Shown in pieces: positions 341 through 58,006 of a DNA stretch of 64,000 bases. The DNA lies in NCBI GenBank assembly GCA_013285445.1, contig CP053448.1:434001-498000 (forward strand), in the 5' to 3' direction. The notes beneath the pieces are model-generated. The model saw nothing but the letters and a program-made list of their open reading frames with translations. It had not been told where the DNA came from and did not search any database. Position 1 is the stretch's first letter. The number at the start of each line of letters is the position of its first letter. Made by a program: the position numbers and the translations under genes. The DNA is from Pseudomonadota bacterium. Lineage in GTDB: Bacteria; Pseudomonadota; Gammaproteobacteria; Xanthomonadales; Wenzhouxiangellaceae.

Positions 341-1366
341 ATGACCGACTTACTCGAACAGCTTGTAGAAACCGCCCAGGCGATGGTTGCCCCCGGAAAA
401 GGCATTCTGGCCATCGATGAGTCCTCCGGCACCATCAAGAAGCGCTTCGACGGCGTCGGCGTGGAGTCGACCGAGGACAACCGCCGCGACTATCGTTCGA
501 TGATGCTCACCACGCCCGGGCTGGGAGAGCACATCTCCGGCGCGATCCTGTTCGACGAGACCATTCGCCAATCGACCGCCGACGGCAAACCGCTGGTCGA
601 GGTGATGAACGAGGCCGGTATCCTGCCCGGCATCAAGGTTGACCAGGGCGCCAAGGCGCTGGCCGGTTTCCCGGGCGAGAAGGTCACCGAGGGCCTGGAC
701 GGACTGCGCGAGCGCCTGGCCGAGTATGCCGAACTGGGCGCACGCTTTGCCAAGTGGCGGGCAGTGATCACCATCGGCGACGACATTCCGTCTCGCGCCT
801 GCCTGCAGGCCAATGCCCACGCGCTGGCGCGCTACGCCGCGCTGTGCCAGGAGGCCGGCATCGTGCCGATCGTCGAGCCCGAGGTGCTGATGGACGGCGA
901 TCACGATCTCGATGCGTCCTACGATGTGACCGAAGCAACGCTCAAGGCGCTGTTTGCCGAGCTCTACGAGCAGAACGTGCTGCTGGAAGGTGCCGTGCTC
1001 AAGGCCTCCATGGTGATTTCCGGCTCCGATGCCCGCGATCGTGCCGGTGTCGAGGAAGTGGCTGAGGCGACCATCGACTGCCTGCTCAACGCCGTGCCGG
1101 CCGCGACCGCCGGCATCGTCTTCCTGTCCGGCGGGCAGGGCGACGTGGAAGCCACCGCGCATCTGGACGCCATGAACAAGATGGGTGAACTGCCCTGGCC
1201 GCTGTCGTTTTCCTATGGACGCGCCCTGCAGGCAGAGTGCCTCAAGACCTGGGCGGCCGATCCGAAGGGCAACCGCGAGCGTGCCCAGCACGTTCTCGCC
1301 CATCGTGCGAAGATGAACGGCCTGGCGGCGCTGGGTGAGTGGAGCGAGGACGAAGAGCGCGGCTGA
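341..1366 (+). CDS. fda: Class I fructose-bisphosphate aldolase
   Basis: 341-residue protein of the eukaryote-like class I (Schiff-base) aldolase family, which reversibly splits fructose-1,6-bisphosphate into glyceraldehyde-3-phosphate and dihydroxyacetone phosphate. Visible family marks are GKGILAIDESSGTI near the N-terminus, the RACLQANAHALARYA helix, the IVEPEVLMDGDH strand, and the Schiff-base lysine in LLEGAVLKASMV (near residue 220). SGGQGDVEAT and the SFSYGRALQ phosphate-binding loop follow. The length is close to the family norm (about 340-360). The start follows GGGGATCTGAA, an acceptable ribosome binding site. It probably belongs to the pyk glycolytic neighbourhood. No class II aldolase is in the window. 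Confidence 0.95.
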   Translation: MTDLLEQLVETAQAMVAPGKGILAIDESSGTIKKRFDGVGVESTEDNRRDYRSMMLTTPGLGEHISGAILFDETIRQSTADGKPLVEVMNEAGILPGIKVDQGAKALAGFPGEKVTEGLDGLRERLAEYAELGARFAKWRAVITIGDDIPSRACLQANAHALARYAALCQEAGIVPIVEPEVLMDGDHDLDASYDVTEATLKALFAELYEQNVLLEGAVLKASMVISGSDARDRAGVEEVAEATIDCLLNAVPAATAGIVFLSGGQGDVEATAHLDAMNKMGELPWPLSFSYGRALQAECLKTWAADPKGNRERAQHVLAHRAKMNGLAALGEWSEDEERG

Positions 1367-1371
1367 AGGTC

Positions 1372-1455
1372 GCGCCGGTGATCGGTAGCCGGTGGTCGGT
1401 GCGTCAGTCGGCCGTGCCGATCACCGGCGCACAGAGTGCTGACGCACCGACCACC
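1372..1455. repeat. Interleaved pair of inverted repeats (A-B-A'-B')
   Basis: Two perfect dyads are interlaced. A at 1372-1385 (GCGCCGGTGATCGG) matches the complement of 1417-1430 over 14 bp. B at 1391-1407 (GGTGGTCGGTGCGTCAG) matches the complement of 1439-1455 over 17 bp. Because the order is A-B-A'-B', both hairpins cannot form as a simple nest; the RNA must choose one or form a pseudoknot. A and B also resemble each other (one mismatch over 13 bases). The element fills the gap between the aldolase stop and the malic enzyme start. Confidence 0.8.
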
Positions 1456-1484
1456 GATGCACGGACGTAGGGATCACTGACCCA

Positions 1485-3794
1485 ATGACCGACCGAGACA
1501 AGTTTCGTGAAGAAGCCCTTGACTACCATCGGCAGTATCCGCCGGGCAAGATCAAGATCACACCGACCAAGGCACTGACCACGTCGAAGGATCTGGCCCT
1601 GGCCTATTCGCCGGGGGTGGCGGCGGCTTCCGAAGAGATTGCGCAGGACCCGCTCAAGGCGCTTGACTACACTGCCCGTGGCAACCTGGTGGCGGTCATT
1701 TCCAACGGCACGGCCGTGCTTGGCCTGGGCGATATCGGCGCGCTGGCATCCAAGCCGGTGATGGAGGGCAAGGGGGTCCTGTTCAAGAAATTCGCCGATA
1801 TCGACGTGTTCGATATCGAGATCGACGAAAAGGACCCCGACAAGCTGATCGAGACGATCGCCCGGCTCGAGCCGAGCTTCGGCGGCATCAACCTCGAAGA
1901 CATCAAGGCGCCGGAGTGCTTCAGAGTCGAGGCGGCGCTCAAGGACCGGATGAACATCCCGGTCTTCCACGATGACCAGCACGGCACGGCGATCATTGCC
2001 GCAGCCGCACTGGTCAACGGCCTGGAGCTGGTCGGCAAGAAAATGGAAGACATCCGGCTGGTCGCATCCGGCGCCGGCGCGGCGGGCATGGCCTGCCTGG
2101 ACCTTCTCGTCACCCTGGGAGTGCGGCGCGAGAATATCGTGGTCTGCGACCGTGAGGGCGTGATTTATGCCGGCCGCGAATCCTACATGGACGAACGCAA
2201 GGCCCAGTATGCGATCGAGACTGATGCGCGCAGCCTTGGCGAGGTCATCGAGGGGGCCGACGTGTTTCTTGGCGTTTCCGCCCCGGGCGTGCTCAAGGCC
2301 GAGATGGTCAAGGCGATGGCCGATGACCCGATCATCCTGGCGCTGGCCAACCCGGTCCCGGAGATCATGCCGGATGTGGCCCGGGAAGCCCGGGGCGACG
2401 CGCTGATTGCCACCGGCCGCTCGGACTTTCCCAATCAGGTCAACAACGTCCTGTGTTTCCCGTACATCTTTCGCGGTGCGCTGGATGTCGGGGCGACGGC
2501 CATCAACGACGAAATGAAGATGGCCTGCGTACACGCCATTGCCGAGCTGGCGCGCATGGAAGCCTCCGATGTGGCCGCGCAGGCCTATGGCGGCAAGGCC
2601 CCCAAGTTCGGTCGCGACTACCTGATTCCGCAACCCTTCGATCCCCGGCTGCTGGTCCACCTGGCCCCGGCCGTGGCCAGGGCGGCGATGGATTCCGGCG
2701 TGGCCGCACGCCCGATCGACGATCTCGACGCCTACCGGGAACGCCTCAGCCAGTACGTATTTCGAACCGGACTGTTGATGAAGCCGGTCTTCGACTCTGC
2801 GCGCAAAGACCCGAAACGCGTTGTTTTTGCCGAGGGTGAGGAAGAGACGGTGCTGCGCGCCGTCCAGACCCTTGTCGACGACGGGCTGGCGAAACCGATC
2901 CTGATCGGCCGTCCGAAGGTGGTCGAGATGCGCATCGAACGTGCGGGGTTGCGCCTGAAACCGGGTCAGGATTTCGAGCTGGTCAACCCGCATGATGATC
3001 CGCGCTACAAGGAATACTGGCAGACGTTCCACAAGATCACCGAGCGCCGCGGCGTCACGCCGGACTCGGCCAAGGCGATCGTGCGCACCCGCAACACCGT
3101 CATTGCCGCCATCATGGTCTACCGCAACGAGGCCGACGCGCTGATCTGCGGCGTGGTCGGGCGCTACCAGAAGAAGCTGCAGTACGTGACCGAGGTGCTG
3201 GGCACGCGAGAGAATTGCCAGACCCTTGGCGCGCTGTCGGCCATGACCAACGAAAACGGCACCTGGTTTGTCTGTGACACCCACGTCAACCCCGACCCGA
3301 CGGCTGATCAGCTCGCCGAGCTGACCGTCATGGCGGCCGAACGCGTGCGCATGTTCGGTATCACGCCCAAGGTGGCGCTGTGCTCGCATTCGAACTTCGG
3401 CAGCCATGTCAACGCCTCGGCTTCGAAGATGCGCCAGGTGTTTTACAAGCTGCGCGAGCTGGTGCCCGACCTGGAGGTCGAGGGTGAAATGCGCGCCGAT
3501 GCGGCCCTGATGCCGGCGATTCGTGAGCGGATCTTTCCCAATTCGCGCCTGGCCGGCTCGGCCAACCTGCTGATCATGCCGAATCAGGACGCCGCCCACA
3601 TCGCTTTTTCCATGGCCAGGGTGATCGGTACGGGCGTGACCATCGGGCCGATGCTGATGGGAGCAGGCCGACCGGCTCACGTACTCACGCCCTCGGCCAC
3701 CGTTCGCCGGGTGGTCAATATGACCGCCATCGCCGTGGTCGATGCCCAGGACTACGAGCGTCGGCGCGAACGCACCGGGCGATTGTTTGGCTGA
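1485..3794 (+). CDS. maeB: NADP-dependent malic enzyme, MaeB type with phosphotransacetylase-like domain
   Basis: 769-residue two-domain protein. Residues about 1-425 form the malic enzyme part, with [12 protein letters not shown], the metal-binding [11 protein letters not shown] loop, and a Rossmann GAGAAG motif for NAD(P). Residues about 430-769 resemble phosphate acetyl/butyryltransferase ([14 protein letters not shown]..., TLGALSAM) and in MaeB proteins serve assembly and acetyl-CoA regulation rather than catalysis. The enzyme oxidatively decarboxylates malate to pyruvate, producing NADPH. The full length matches the usual 750-770. The start is the ATG at 1485, with a weak Shine-Dalgarno. 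It sits downstream of the interleaved repeat, which may influence its expression. Confidence 0.95.
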
Positions 3795-17736: not shown

Positions 17737-20409
17737 ATGGTTCAACAGTATCCGCACCCTGACGACATCGATTCCCGGGAGACCCAGGAATGGCTGGAGT
17801 CGCTGGCCGCCGTCGTCGAGCGCGAGGGCCCTGAGCGAGCGCACTTTCTGCTCGAGCGCCTGGTCGAGCTGGCGCGCCGTTCCGGCGCCCACCTTCCGTT
17901 CGACCTGACCACCGCCTACATCAACACCATTCCGCCGCACCGCGAGCCGAGCATGCCCGGCGATGGGGCGCTGGAGCGCCGCATCCGCTCGATCATCCGC
18001 TGGAACGCCATGGCGATGGTGGTGCGCGCCTCGCGTCGCGGCGGCGAGCTGGGCGGGCACATCGCCAGCTTCGCTTCGGCGGCGACGCTCTACGACGTTG
18101 GCTTCAACCACTTCTTCAAGGGCCCGGATCACGAAGACGGCGCCGACCTGGTCTACTTCCAGGGGCATTCCTCGCCGGGCTTCTACGCCCGCGCCTTTCT
18201 CGAAGGCCGGCTGAGCGAGGATGATCTCGACGGCTTCCGCCGTGAAGTCGACGGTGAGGGCATCAGCTCCTACCCGCACCCCTGGCTGATGCCGGATTTC
18301 TGGCAGTTTCCGACCGTGTCGATGGGCTTAGGGCCCATCATGTCCATCTACCAGGCGCGCTTCTTGAAGTATCTGACCAACCGCGGCATTGCCGATGCCG
18401 GCAAGCGCCGGGTCTGGAGCTTTCTCGGCGACGGCGAGATGGACGAGCCCGAATCGCTGGGTGCGATCTCCCTGGCCGGGCGCGAAAAGCTCGACAACCT
18501 GACTTTTGTGATCAACTGCAACCTGCAGCGTCTCGACGGCCCGGTGCGCGGCAACGGCAAGATCATCCAGGAACTGGAAGGGTTCTTCCGCGGCGCGGGC
18601 TGGAACGTGATCAAGGTCATCTGGGGTTCCTACTGGGATCCGCTGCTGGCGCGCGATACCAAGGGGCTTTTGCGCCGGCGCATGGAAGAAGCGCTCGACG
18701 GTGATTACCAGAAGTACAAGGCGCGCGACGGCGCCTATGTGCGCGAACACTTCTTCGGCGCCTACGACGAGCTCAAGGAGATGGTCGCCGACCTGTCCGA
18801 CGAGGACATCTGGCGCCTGAACCGCGGCGGCCACGATCCGCACAAGATCCATGCCGCCTACCATTCGGCCGTGCATCACGAAGGCCAGCCGACGGTGATC
18901 CTGGCCAAGACCATCAAGGGCTACGGCCTGGGCCAGTCGGGCGAGGGCCAGAACATCTCGCATCAGCAAAAGAAGCTCGACGACCAGGGCGTGAAGTACT
19001 TCCGCGATCGCTTCAACGTGCCGCTGTCCGACGACAAGCTCAAGGATGTGCCCTACTACCACCCCGGCGAGGATTCCGACGAAGTTCGCTACATGAAAAA
19101 GCGACGCGATCAACTCGGCGGGCCCCTGCCGCAGCGTCGCGTCGACTACGAGCCCCTGGAAGTGCCCGAGCTCGACGCCTTCGAAAAGATCATGGCCTCG
19201 ACCGGCGAGCGCGAGATCTCGACCACCATGGCCCTGGTGCGCTGCATGACGGTGCTGCTGCGCGACAAGAACATCAAGGACCGCATCGTGCCGATCATCT
19301 GCGACGAGGGCCGCACCTTCGGCGTCGAGGGCCTGTTCCGGCAGATCGGCATCTACGCGCCCTTCGGCCAGCTCTACGAGCCGGTCGATTCCGACCAGCT
19401 GGCCTATTACAAGGAAGCCAAGGAAGGCCAGGTGCTGCAGGAAGGCATCACCGAGGCCGGCTCGATGAGCTCCTGGATCGCCGCGGCGACCAGCTATGCT
19501 TCGAGCGGCGTGCCGATGGTGCCGTTTTTCCTGTTCTACTCGATGTTCGGTTTCCAGCGCGTCGGCGACCTGGCCTGGGCGGCCGGCGACATGCGCGCGC
19601 GCGGTTTCCTGATCGGCGGCACCTCGGGGCGGACCACGCTCAACGGCGAGGGCCTGCAGCACGAGGACGGGCACAGCCAGGTCCAGGCCGGCCTGATTCC
19701 CAACTGCGTGTCCTACGACCCGACCTTCGCCTACGAGCTGGCCGTGATCCTGCAGGACGGCCTGAAGCGCATGTACGCCGACGGCGAGGACGTCTACTAC
19801 TACATCACCGTGCTCAACGAGAACTACCAGCACCCGGACATGCCCGAGGGCGCCGAGGACGGCATCCGCAAGGGCATGTACCTGTTTCGGGAAGGCGACG
19901 GCGACGACTCACCGCGCGTTCAGCTGATGGGCTCCGGCGCGATCCTTCGTGAGGTGATTGCGGCGGCTGAGATTCTGAAAGACGACTATGGTGTCGAGTC
20001 CGATATCTGGTCGGTGACCGGCTTCAACGAGCTGCGCAAGGAAGCGCACGAGGTCAGCCGGCGCAACCGGATCAAGCCCGACGAGTCGCCGAAAACGCCC
20101 TGGATCACCGGCCTGCTCAAGGATCGCACGGGCCCGGTGGTGGCGGCCACCGACTACGTCCGTGGCTTTGCCGACCAGGTGCGCGAGTTCGTGCCGGCCG
20201 ACGACTACATCGTGCTGGGCACCGACGGCTTCGGCCGCTCGGACACGCGCGAGAACCTGCGCCGCTTCTTCGAGGTCGACCGCTACAACGTCGCCTGGGC
20301 CGCGCTGGTCGGCCTCAACCGCCAGGGCAGGTTCGACGACGACAAGCTAATCAAGGCCAGAAGCGCGCTGAATATCGACCCCGACAAGCCGATGCCCCTG
20401 ACGGGATGA
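17737..20409 (+). CDS. aceE: Pyruvate dehydrogenase E1 component, homodimeric type
   Basis: 890 residues (E. coli enzyme 887). This is the thiamine-diphosphate E1 that decarboxylates pyruvate and acetylates the lipoyl groups of E2. The ThDP/Mg motif is FLGDGEMDEPESLG with NCNLQRLDG. SSWIAAATSYAS, SGRTTLNGEGLQHEDGHSQ and YDPTFAYELAVI are all typical of AceE. The start is the ATG at 17737 with AAGAGG seven bases upstream; a longer frame to 17563 lacks homology. The stop codon lies inside a duplicated repeat unit. The E2 gene follows after a 400-base repeat-rich gap. Confidence 0.97.
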   Translation: MVQQYPHPDDIDSRETQEWLESLAAVVEREGPERAHFLLERLVELARRSGAHLPFDLTTAYINTIPPHREPSMPGDGALERRIRSIIRWNAMAMVVRASRRGGELGGHIASFASAATLYDVGFNHFFKGPDHEDGADLVYFQGHSSPGFYARAFLEGRLSEDDLDGFRREVDGEGISSYPHPWLMPDFWQFPTVSMGLGPIMSIYQARFLKYLTNRGIADAGKRRVWSFLGDGEMDEPESLGAISLAGREKLDNLTFVINCNLQRLDGPVRGNGKIIQELEGFFRGAGWNVIKVIWGSYWDPLLARDTKGLLRRRMEEALDGDYQKYKARDGAYVREHFFGAYDELKEMVADLSDEDIWRLNRGGHDPHKIHAAYHSAVHHEGQPTVILAKTIKGYGLGQSGEGQNISHQQKKLDDQGVKYFRDRFNVPLSDDKLKDVPYYHPGEDSDEVRYMKKRRDQLGGPLPQRRVDYEPLEVPELDAFEKIMASTGEREISTTMALVRCMTVLLRDKNIKDRIVPIICDEGRTFGVEGLFRQIGIYAPFGQLYEPVDSDQLAYYKEAKEGQVLQEGITEAGSMSSWIAAATSYASSGVPMVPFFLFYSMFGFQRVGDLAWAAGDMRARGFLIGGTSGRTTLNGEGLQHEDGHSQVQAGLIPNCVSYDPTFAYELAVILQDGLKRMYADGEDVYYYITVLNENYQHPDMPEGAEDGIRKGMYLFREGDGDDSPRVQLMGSGAILREVIAAAEILKDDYGVESDIWSVTGFNELRKEAHEVSRRNRIKPDESPKTPWITGLLKDRTGPVVAATDYVRGFADQVREFVPADDYIVLGTDGFGRSDTRENLRRFFEVDRYNVAWAALVGLNRQGRFDDDKLIKARSALNIDPDKPMPLTG

Positions 20410-20774
20410 GCGGAATGGTGTCGGTATTGTAGGTCGGGGTCGCATCCCCGACGGGCGAGGGGTCTGACGGGTGCGCGGATCTCGAATGTCGACCGTCGCG
20501 GATGCGACCGCGACCTACTCGGCACGGTACCATCTCGGATGCGACCGCGACCTACTCGGCACCGGAAGGTGGGTCGACCTGACGGGATGAGCGGATTGGG
20601 TGTCGGTATTGTAGGTCGGGGTCGCATCCCCGACGGGCGAGGGGTCTGACGGGTGCGCGGATCTCGAATGTCGACCGTCGCGGATGCGACCGCGACCTAC
20701 TTCGGCACGGTACCATCTCGGATGCGACCGCGACCTACTCGGCACGGTACCATCTCGGATGCGACCGCGACCTT
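20398..20774. repeat. REP-type hairpins in a 181-bp tandem duplication between aceE and aceF
   Basis: This fills the 400-base aceE-aceF gap; I see no gene in it. A unit starting in the last codons of aceE (20398) is repeated from 20579, 181-182 bp later. It holds hairpins of one family: GTCGGGG-TCGCAT-CCCCGAC at 20433-20452 and again at 20615-20634, and GTCGCGG-ATGCGA-CCGCGAC at 20495-20514 and 20677-20696. Further copies with a decayed left arm (TCTCGG...) are near 20533, 20716 and 20753. Intact copies carry a flanking GTAG (or CTAC on the other strand), the head tetranucleotide typical of REPs spread by REP-associated tyrosine transposases. Confidence 0.9.
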
Positions 20775-20809: not shown

Positions 20810-22285
20810 ATGAGCAAGAAGCAGGAAATCAAGGTCCCGGACATCGGCGATTTCGACAAGGTGCCGGTCATCGAGGTGCTGGTCTCCGAGGGCGACGAGA
20901 TCGAGACCGAGCAGTCGCTGATCACGCTCGAATCCGACAAGGCGACCATGGACGTGCCGTCCACGGCAGCGGGCAAACTCATCGAGCTGAAGGTCTCCGA
21001 GGGCGACGAGGTTGGCGAGGGTGATGTCATCGGGGTCGTGGAGATTTCCGAAGGCGACGGGGAAGCGTCGGACGATGCCGGCTCCGGGGATGAAGATGAG
21101 ACGGGTTCCGGTTTCCGGGTTCGGGGTTCCGGGGGGTCTCCAGATGACTTGGAGAGTGCCGATGAATCCGATGGCTCCGGCAAGAATGACGAAGCCCGCC
21201 CGGAAACCGGAAACCGTAAAACGGAATCCGATTCATCCCGCCCGGAAACCGGAGACCGGAAACCGGACACCTCGTCAGGCGAAGGCGACAAGCAGTCAGC
21301 TGGCAAGGCGTCCGCCAGCGGCGACGATCTCCCGGCGCCCCCGGTGCCCTTCGAGGCGATGGACCAGGATCCGTCGAAGCTACCGCATGCCTCGCCGGCG
21401 GTGCGCAAACTGGCGCGTGAGCTCGGCGTCGACCTGACCGGTGTCGAGGGCTCTGGACGCAAGGGGCGCATCACCGAGGACGACCTCAAGAATCGCGTCA
21501 AGCGCTTGATGGAATCCGGTGGCGCTGCCGCAGCAAGCGGTGCCGGACTGAACATCGCCGAGCCGCCGCAGGTCGACTTCTCGAAATACGGTGAAGTCGA
21601 GGAGGAAAAGCTCTCGCGCATCAAGCAGATCTCCGGACCTGCCCTGCACCGCAACTGGGTGTCGATCCCGCACGTCACGCAGTTCGATGAGGCCGATATC
21701 ACCGAGATGGAGGCCTTCCGCAAGGCCAGCAAGCGGACCGCCGAGGAGGCGGGCAGCAAGATGACCCCGCTGGTGTTTCTGATCAAGGCGCTGGTGGCCG
21801 CCCTGAAGGCATTCCCGCACTTCAATGCCTCACTGTCCAACGACGGCAAGACGCTGATCAGGAAAAAGTACTTCCACATCGGCGTGGCGGTGGATACGCC
21901 CGACGGCCTGGTCGTGCCGGTGATCCGTGACGCCGACCGGAAGGGCCTGATCGAGCTGGCGCAGGATCTGACCGATCTGTCGACGCGCGCACGCGAAGGC
22001 AAGCTCAAGGGCGACGAGATGAAGGGCGGCTGCTTCTCCATCTCGAGCCTGGGCGGCATTGGCGGCACGGCCTTCACGCCGATCATCAATGCGCCCGAGC
22101 TGGCCATCCTCGGCGTGTCGCGTTCGCAGATGAAGCCGGTCTGGGACGGCGAGCAGTTCCAGCCCAGGCTGATGCTGCCGCTGTCGCTGTCCTACGACCA
22201 TCGCGTCATCGACGGCGCGGACGCCGCGCGCTTTACCCGCTACCTGGCCGAGCAGCTCGAGGACTTGCGGCGGCTGCTGCTTTGA
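20810..22285 (+). CDS. aceF: Dihydrolipoamide acetyltransferase, pyruvate dehydrogenase E2
   Basis: 491 residues. One lipoyl domain (about 1-80) has the modified lysine in LESDKATMDVPS. A long Gly/Ser/Asp/Glu-rich linker (about 82-180) leads to the peripheral-subunit-binding domain (HASPAVRKLARELGVD, about 188-225) and the catalytic acyltransferase domain (about 255-491) with active-site His in LSYDHRVIDGADAARF. E. coli AceF has three lipoyl domains; one is common elsewhere. The linker contains a tandem RPETGxRK repeat whose DNA looks like inserted repeat sequence. Its start is 36 bases past the last REP. No lpd gene follows, so E3 must be encoded elsewhere. Confidence 0.96.
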   Translation: MSKKQEIKVPDIGDFDKVPVIEVLVSEGDEIETEQSLITLESDKATMDVPSTAAGKLIELKVSEGDEVGEGDVIGVVEISEGDGEASDDAGSGDEDETGSGFRVRGSGGSPDDLESADESDGSGKNDEARPETGNRKTESDSSRPETGDRKPDTSSGEGDKQSAGKASASGDDLPAPPVPFEAMDQDPSKLPHASPAVRKLARELGVDLTGVEGSGRKGRITEDDLKNRVKRLMESGGAAAASGAGLNIAEPPQVDFSKYGEVEEEKLSRIKQISGPALHRNWVSIPHVTQFDEADITEMEAFRKASKRTAEEAGSKMTPLVFLIKALVAALKAFPHFNASLSNDGKTLIRKKYFHIGVAVDTPDGLVVPVIRDADRKGLIELAQDLTDLSTRAREGKLKGDEMKGGCFSISSLGGIGGTAFTPIINAPELAILGVSRSQMKPVWDGEQFQPRLMLPLSLSYDHRVIDGADAARFTRYLAEQLEDLRRLLL

Positions 22286-57835: not shown

Positions 57836-58006
57836 ACTAGCCCGCATTATTCATGAATCGCCGCGATGATTGCGCAGGGGATTGTTCGCACAGCGGATTT
57901 TCCGACCGAGCGGAATACCAGGCTGTATTTCCGAGGGAGGAACATCCGCTGTGCGGACAAGGCGCAAGCAAGGGCGCGAGTGAATTCATGGATAATGCGG
58001 GCTAGT
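57836..58006. mobile_element. MITE-like long imperfect palindrome (171 bp)
   Basis: Terminal inverted repeats 57836-57858 and 57984-58006 match over 23 bp with one mismatch (both arms start ACTAGCCCGCATTAT when read inward). Inner arms also pair: CGCACAGCGGAT at 57887-57898 and its complement ATCCGCTGTGCG at about 57944-57955, so almost the whole element folds back on itself. It has no coding capacity. Its right end overlaps the ntrC stop codon (58002-58004). It may be a transposase-mobilised miniature element or an extended palindromic repeat. Confidence 0.75.

Follow-up and report, generated by a model that had tools for sequence, protein, structure and literature searches.

Crossed inverted repeats in the gap from aldolase to malic enzyme gene are probably a worn and rearranged hairpin of repeated heptamer words

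The window analysed here, by which we mean the whole 64,000-nt stretch of DNA, belongs to a Wenzhouxiangellaceae genome that is a 3.49-Mb single contig. Near the start of the window an aldolase gene is followed on the same strand by a malic enzyme gene, and the element described below lies entirely inside the 118-nt gap between them. Its parts and its neighbors are as follows.

341..1366, + strand: upstream gene, class I fructose-bisphosphate aldolase (fda), PF00274
1372..1385, + strand: A, left arm of dyad 1, 14 nt, contains the word GTGATCG
1378..1398, + strand: heptamer run of GTnnTCn type, GTGATCG GTAGCCG GTGGTCG, three in register, with one mismatch in the second
1390..1407, + strand: B, left arm of dyad 2, 18 nt, contains the word GTGGTCG
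1417..1430, + strand: A', right arm of dyad 1, 14 nt, complementary to A
1439..1456, + strand: B', right arm of dyad 2, 18 nt, complementary to B
1485..3794, + strand: downstream gene, malic enzyme with a C-terminal phosphotransacetylase (PTA/PTB) domain, maeB type, PF00390, PF03949, PF01515

The original prediction had placed two crossed perfect dyads, in the order A-B-A'-B', between aldolase and malic enzyme, and both the dyads and the site, the latter now backed by the Pfam domains, proved to be real. Both dyads are 100% paired with 31 nt between their arms, A:A' over 14 nt and B:B' over 18 nt, one base pair more than the 17 first stated, which puts the end of the element at 1456. A and B had also been called near-copies of each other, and indeed positions 1374-1386 and 1388-1400 are identical at 12 of 13 nucleotides, at an offset of 14 nt, or 2 x 7; because the two are so nearly identical, a third and weaker pairing exists between 1388-1399 and 1417-1428 (92%). 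Even a single perfect 12-bp dyad appeared in just 7 of 5000 dinucleotide shuffles of the gap, and the inverted-repeat score of the gap, 18, was reached by none of 100 such shuffles (maximum 10.5).

The RNA folding that had been proposed as a check indicated a stable structure (z = -3.66, with equal stability in 0 of 200 shuffles) in which B:B' is favoured, the gap folding to -58.0 kcal/mol when A:A' was forced and to -63.7 kcal/mol when B:B' was forced. In modeled folds of the growing transcript A:A' is present from 1430 to about 1450 and gives way to B:B' from 1455 onward. The end state is predicted to be B:B', with A:A' transient during synthesis, and an exchange of the one for the other during transcription is possible on paper. 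A full pseudoknot holding both stems (14 and 18 bp, with linkers of 4, 9 and 8 nt) seems unlikely. Most of 1463-1484 lies outside the main stem in the predicted fold. The antisense strand of the gap folds nearly as stably (-61.6), as a plain inverted repeat would.

The alternative-hairpin geometry claimed for the element is therefore correct, and both folds are energetically possible. Mutually exclusive perfect dyads, a predicted order of formation from A:A' to B:B', and the stability of both states are all features that a cis-acting attenuator or riboswitch of maeB could display, in which A:A' or B:B' would be chosen co-transcriptionally and one of the two would permit maeB expression. Against such a device, we found no intrinsic terminator (a GC-rich short-loop stem with a T run) and no sigma-70-like promoter in 1250-1600, and no Rfam family matched the element at the gathering score.

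A search of the whole genome revealed no second copy of the element, the best match beyond the site being 84% over 35 nt (E = 0.01) in what is apparently coding sequence; the many identical copies that would mark a repeat rather than a switch are thus absent. At the level of words, one-mismatch matches to GTnnTCn numbered 159, compared with 164 in a reversed control, and are at background, while outside the gap the genome has one GTnnTCn array, of four overlapping matches, the only exact array lying at C1:2460001. A multi-copy repeat within this genome was rejected on these two grounds, the missing second copy and the background level of one-mismatch words. The suggestion of repeat palindromes, the other idea in the original prediction, nevertheless came nearer than the switch did, since the element matches a family of heptamer words with multiple copies in relatives, although identical copies are lacking here.

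A REP- or MITE-type palindrome moved by a transposase is a related proposal, and the element is indeed palindromic and intergenic, in a genome that has GTAG-tagged REP-like repeats (window 20429-20773) as well as MITE-like elements. Yet GTAG-type REPs come in many near-identical copies per genome and this element has no second copy, it is by eye unlike the REP-like sequence of its genome, and word hairpins of one family vary between copies in the order and number of their words, which together make a mobile palindrome highly improbable.

The REP-like block itself is made up of GTAG-type palindromes, GTAGGTCGGGGTCGCATCCCCGACGG together with inverted counterparts; the genome has comparable copies in L202, L203 and L206. 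The MITE-like element is found at window 57836-58006, at L204:1171-1339 and 17778-17942, and at L208:4040-4208; its terminal inverted repeats of 20-23 bp (CTAGCCCGCATTATTCATGAAT) flank 125 nt, and it is multi-copy within the 464 kb sampled. Elsewhere in the window, at 21101-21267, an open reading frame contains a GGTTTCC-type word array together with its inverted counterpart, so that this hairpin is translated, apparently (by eye) as a linker after a lipoyl-type domain.

To place the element we compared the fda-maeB gap across 33 genomes of the family, window included, in which both genes are adjacent. The gap is closed (-1 to 25 nt) in nine, longer and wordless in five, two of which (G008, G035) have apparently ordinary terminators, and filled by word arrays in 19. 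These arrays consist of words of 7-10 nt, usually with an evident hairpin, and fall into at least eight families, array labels and families alike being assigned by eye. We picture a word hairpin as two facing arrays of 7-, 9- or 10-nt direct repeats that would pair into a long stem. The occupants of the gap are listed by word.

GTnnTCn: window, G004, G016
GGTTTCA: G003, G005, G032
GGGACTC: G024
GATGAACGCA: G023, G010
CACGAAGGA: G018, G011, G002
CAAGGTT-like: G012, G009, G015, G041
GTGTTAG: G030
GGGACTA: G033
word mixture: G031

Inverted repeats in 17 of the 24 gaps of at least 40 nt outscored all 100 shuffles, one of the 17 (G035) being a plain terminator-like stem; in G003, G024 and G032 the words are present but make a weak stem, surpassed by 1, 1 and 2 shuffles. 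The G004 and G016 gaps, which share the word family of the window, hold unmistakable GTnnTCn hairpins. In the sister group of the window genome, G004, G003 and G023 carry three different word families, and on a tree built from the flanking proteins the eleven gap states cannot be explained by fewer than 18 changes, a minimum for one tree in which several deep forks lack resolution. The G018 gap (L107) is identical to that of L021, from a Wenzhouxiangella MAG, of the same genus group as the window genome. In G031 the gap (L231) is 414 nt long and has several word families side by side, with long pure runs of CTGAAAC and CGGAAAC.

The words that occupy the gap are also found elsewhere in the genomes concerned. 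A pattern of three GTnnTCn words followed by GT, counted in 30 genomes of the genus, is multi-copy in several, with 174 overlapping matches in G016, 106 in G022, 88 in G018, 60 in G006 and 58 in G004, counts that mix sub-families in that the pattern also captures other words such as GTCTTCC. Altogether five word patterns were counted per genome, the matches overlapping within arrays and so not being counts of elements. By this measure the family seen in the gap reaches 372 matches in its own genome in G003 (TTCAGG), 174 in G016 (GTnnTCn) and 112 in G015 (CAAGG), and CACGAAG reaches 66, 63 and 60 in G011, G018 and G002. Words are also alike within a genome, all 13 GATGAACnC matches listed for G004 being of the GATGAACAC kind and all 27 listed for G010 of the GATGAACGC kind.

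After the matches of the gap itself were subtracted, 12 of 13 genomes retained at least five of the family found in their gap, which none of 50,000 permutations equaled; the single shortfall was the window genome, with its four matches. This test covers the 13 of the 33 genomes for which the gap family is among the five counted and all counts are present, and it leaves out G024 and G033 (families uncounted), G031 (mixed), G030 (GTGTTAG uncounted), G032 and G041 (GTnnTC uncounted there) and all genomes without word arrays. Among those left out, G041 agrees with the rule (28 CAAGG matches) and G032 disagrees, having a GGTTTCA gap in a genome with just one TTCAGG match. A log-count statistic was equaled by 0 of 50,000 permutations for the 13 genomes, by 1 when G000 was omitted and by 0 for the ten less related genomes, for which the five-or-more count was equaled by 16.

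Across the class the GTnnTCn pattern is patchy, occurring in 40 of 370 genomes, with 358 matches in G115, 122 in G366, 60 in G380 and 48 in G202. Some genomes are richer in the reversed control (G147, 224), and heptamer arrays of other words must therefore also exist.

The swapping of word families in relatives extends to two further gene pairs, ahcY-metF and kdsA-eno, which were picked because the window genome has word hairpins at both. Without the window genome, the fixed rule for word hairpins is passed by 14 of 21 loci at fda-maeB, 5 of 22 at ahcY-metF and 11 of 17 at kdsA-eno, 30 of 60 in total, compared with 33 of 370 sampled gaps of 80-800 nt; a p-value for the three sites is indicative only, given the relatedness of the species and the choice of sites according to the hairpins of the window genome. 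One locus per site was dropped for a missing upstream gene (L286 at ahcY-metF, L314 at kdsA-eno). Taken alone, ahcY-metF is only modestly enriched, and L288, among the five loci that pass there, is a simple palindrome. The sampled gaps yielded 4 of 119 in G000, 22 of 137 in G004 (some possibly ordinary palindromes that meet the rule), 6 of 56 in G024 and 1 of 58 in G002.

Word hairpins would seem to lie most often between co-directional genes, where 23 of 214 sampled gaps passed, with 6 of 70 convergent and 4 of 86 divergent gaps, classes that are approximate because gene bounds were set with a simple open-reading-frame picker; in this sample divergent gaps are not significantly depleted (Fisher p = 0.13). 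Arrays differ by whole units, the left arrays of G012 and G009 by 49 nt and two kdsA-eno orthologues by 7 nt. In the ahcY-metF gap of the window genome (L274), a GGTTTCA hairpin fills nearly the entire gap and ends at the metF start codon, leaving no space for a usual ribosome-binding site outside the stem.

These comparisons also bear on the attenuator or riboswitch. That relatives repeatedly have hairpins at the fda-maeB site could be counted in its favor. However, no conserved sequence was found across the related aldolase-maeB gaps, and the gap is nearly absent in 9 of 33 genomes, which thus have no room for such a device. The covariation analysis proposed for homologous gaps gave no help to a switch either, the window hairpin having no alignable orthologue and the signal being weak or absent in other word hairpins. 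Orthologous hairpins at ahcY-metF showed no cell kept by two-sided change, six kept by one-sided change and 15 broken cells; at kdsA-eno, where loops vary more than stems, two-sided kept and broken cells numbered 7 and 48 for the GATGAACGC set and 1 and 5 for the GATGAACACA set, in both cases on a loose alignment. Selection on pairing in orthologous word hairpins thus shows no clear sign, by which we mean no clear support rather than none. Given that the site is unconserved, that neither a terminator nor an Rfam match was found, and that comparable hairpins show no clear compensatory change, the metabolic switch conceived in the original prediction is not supported and was set aside as the leading reading; we consider it very unlikely. 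Nothing points to the detection of a ligand or metabolite, and a stable intercistronic stem would be expected to affect decay or read-through at most.

The relatives instead supply a word for the window element. Among 13 word models scored in register against the gap only GTnnTCn fits, with a score of 3.8 against a shuffled mean of 1.5, a value as high in 1 of 2000 shuffles, for a model that was derived from the G004 gap after both the G004 and window gaps had been viewed. An alternative GTnnTCn score was reached by 3 of 2000 shuffles, and the next-best model, GATGAACGCA, was matched by 175 of 2000. The window element also has the long stem of a word-array hairpin in its 18-bp perfect B:B', and three words stand in register in its left arm. 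That arm shows no significant general periodicity (p = 0.36 at the best lag, 7, and p = 0.14 at lag 14), and the window copy was therefore read as worn; the strict word-hairpin filter did not count it. Its arms are exact complements in swapped order, whereas the words of typical copies pair imperfectly, and no intermediate form turned up in any close relative.

We think it likely, from this combination of word, site and stem, that the window element is a degenerate and rearranged intercistronic word-array hairpin of the GTnnTCn family, acting as a passive RNA stem with no sensing. Arrays of one word family would spread and stay alike within a genome, perhaps by copying between sites, and would gain or lose length in whole units, and the family at a fixed site could give way to another while the hairpin persists. 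The arms of the window copy would have shed most of their words and come to hold two right-side blocks in swapped order: A precedes B in the left arm, but B precedes A in the right arm when that arm is read on its own strand. Such a swap could have arisen through out-of-phase trimming of arms that were once longer and repetitive, or through separate copying of the blocks, and it would explain why there are two mutually exclusive dyads rather than one nested stem. At the RNA level the product would be a stem with a passive role between the two cistrons, aldolase and maeB, B:B' being final and A:A' transient, much like REP-type hairpins. It counts against this explanation that a local source of the words is not evident in a genome with one other GTnnTCn array.

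The exactness of both dyads also allows for recent inverted-copy mutations, either alone or atop a worn array. Two independent template switches, each laying down an exact inverted copy 31 nt away and unrelated to any word family, would fit the perfect pairing, which is unlike that of the imperfect word arrays, the 31-nt spacers of both dyads and the lack of another copy in the genome. The fit of the gap to GTnnTCn and the presence of true GTnnTCn hairpins at the orthologous site in G004 and G016 argue against this account, and we regard it as unlikely by itself; it could be combined with the worn word array as a late inverted-copy event.

On a more speculative level, and with rather less confidence than we place in the worn array, the hairpin might be a persistent intergenic slot filled by whatever word the current repertoire of the genome provides and overwritten family by family. 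Such overwriting would work in trans, by copying, and would be guided by the slot or by its structure and not by its sequence. On this view the window element would be a slot seen after one overwriting and before the next, at a time when little of its former word family is left elsewhere in the genome. As a whole this reading is possible, though doubtful.

Parts of this picture have precedents. Xanthomonas GGGAATC heptamer arrays are described as intergenic direct repeats, mostly by co-directional genes, with 70-75 facing-array sites per genome that are capable of forming stem-loops and 83% of array sites kept between two species with varying array length (Rehm et al. 2015, PMC4692102). The word hairpins resemble them in being intergenic heptamer direct repeats whose facing pairs yield a stem-loop. 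As that system is described, however, one G-rich family occupies homologous sites, whereas here many families of 7-, 9- and 10-nt words replace one another; the window copy differs further in being worn, in its crossed dyads and in its word, the in-register words of the gap being GTnnTCn (GGGAATC itself was unscored). In the P6b stem-loop of the Nostoc trnL intron the class of repeat motif is reported to have been replaced several times across lineages (Kaasalainen et al. 2015, PMC4476775), which is likewise a repeat-motif hairpin at one fixed place with a changing motif. That account concerns two classes in a group I intron, in contrast to at least eight families in gaps between protein genes, and here, unlike there, the occupant usually matches the genome's own repertoire.

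The TAACTGA arrays of Beggiatoaceae are abundant intergenic heptamers near start codons, described as direct repeats of one word that are almost never inverted, unlike the word hairpins (PMC4679880). GTAG/CGTC-tagged REP elements, which are palindromes of fixed form, 20-40 bp long and marked by a tetranucleotide (Di Nocera et al. 2013, PMC3733652), share with the word hairpins an intergenic position and a plausible role as RNA stems, and as described they are not built of tandem words. Heptamer arrays and one case of motif replacement are thus already on record, in the accounts of PMC4692102 and PMC4476775; in the open-access literature we found no prior account of many word families trading places at several gene pairs, nor of such exchanges across three pairs where, at one, the occupant agrees with the stock of the genome.

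The single window element is a minor matter, and it is the setting that counts, orthologous gaps keeping a hairpin while swapping the repeat word from which it is built. This makes the spread and homogenisation of such arrays testable by comparison of strains. It also carries a warning for genomes of this sort, in which hairpins that lie before metabolic genes and show no covariation may not be switches.
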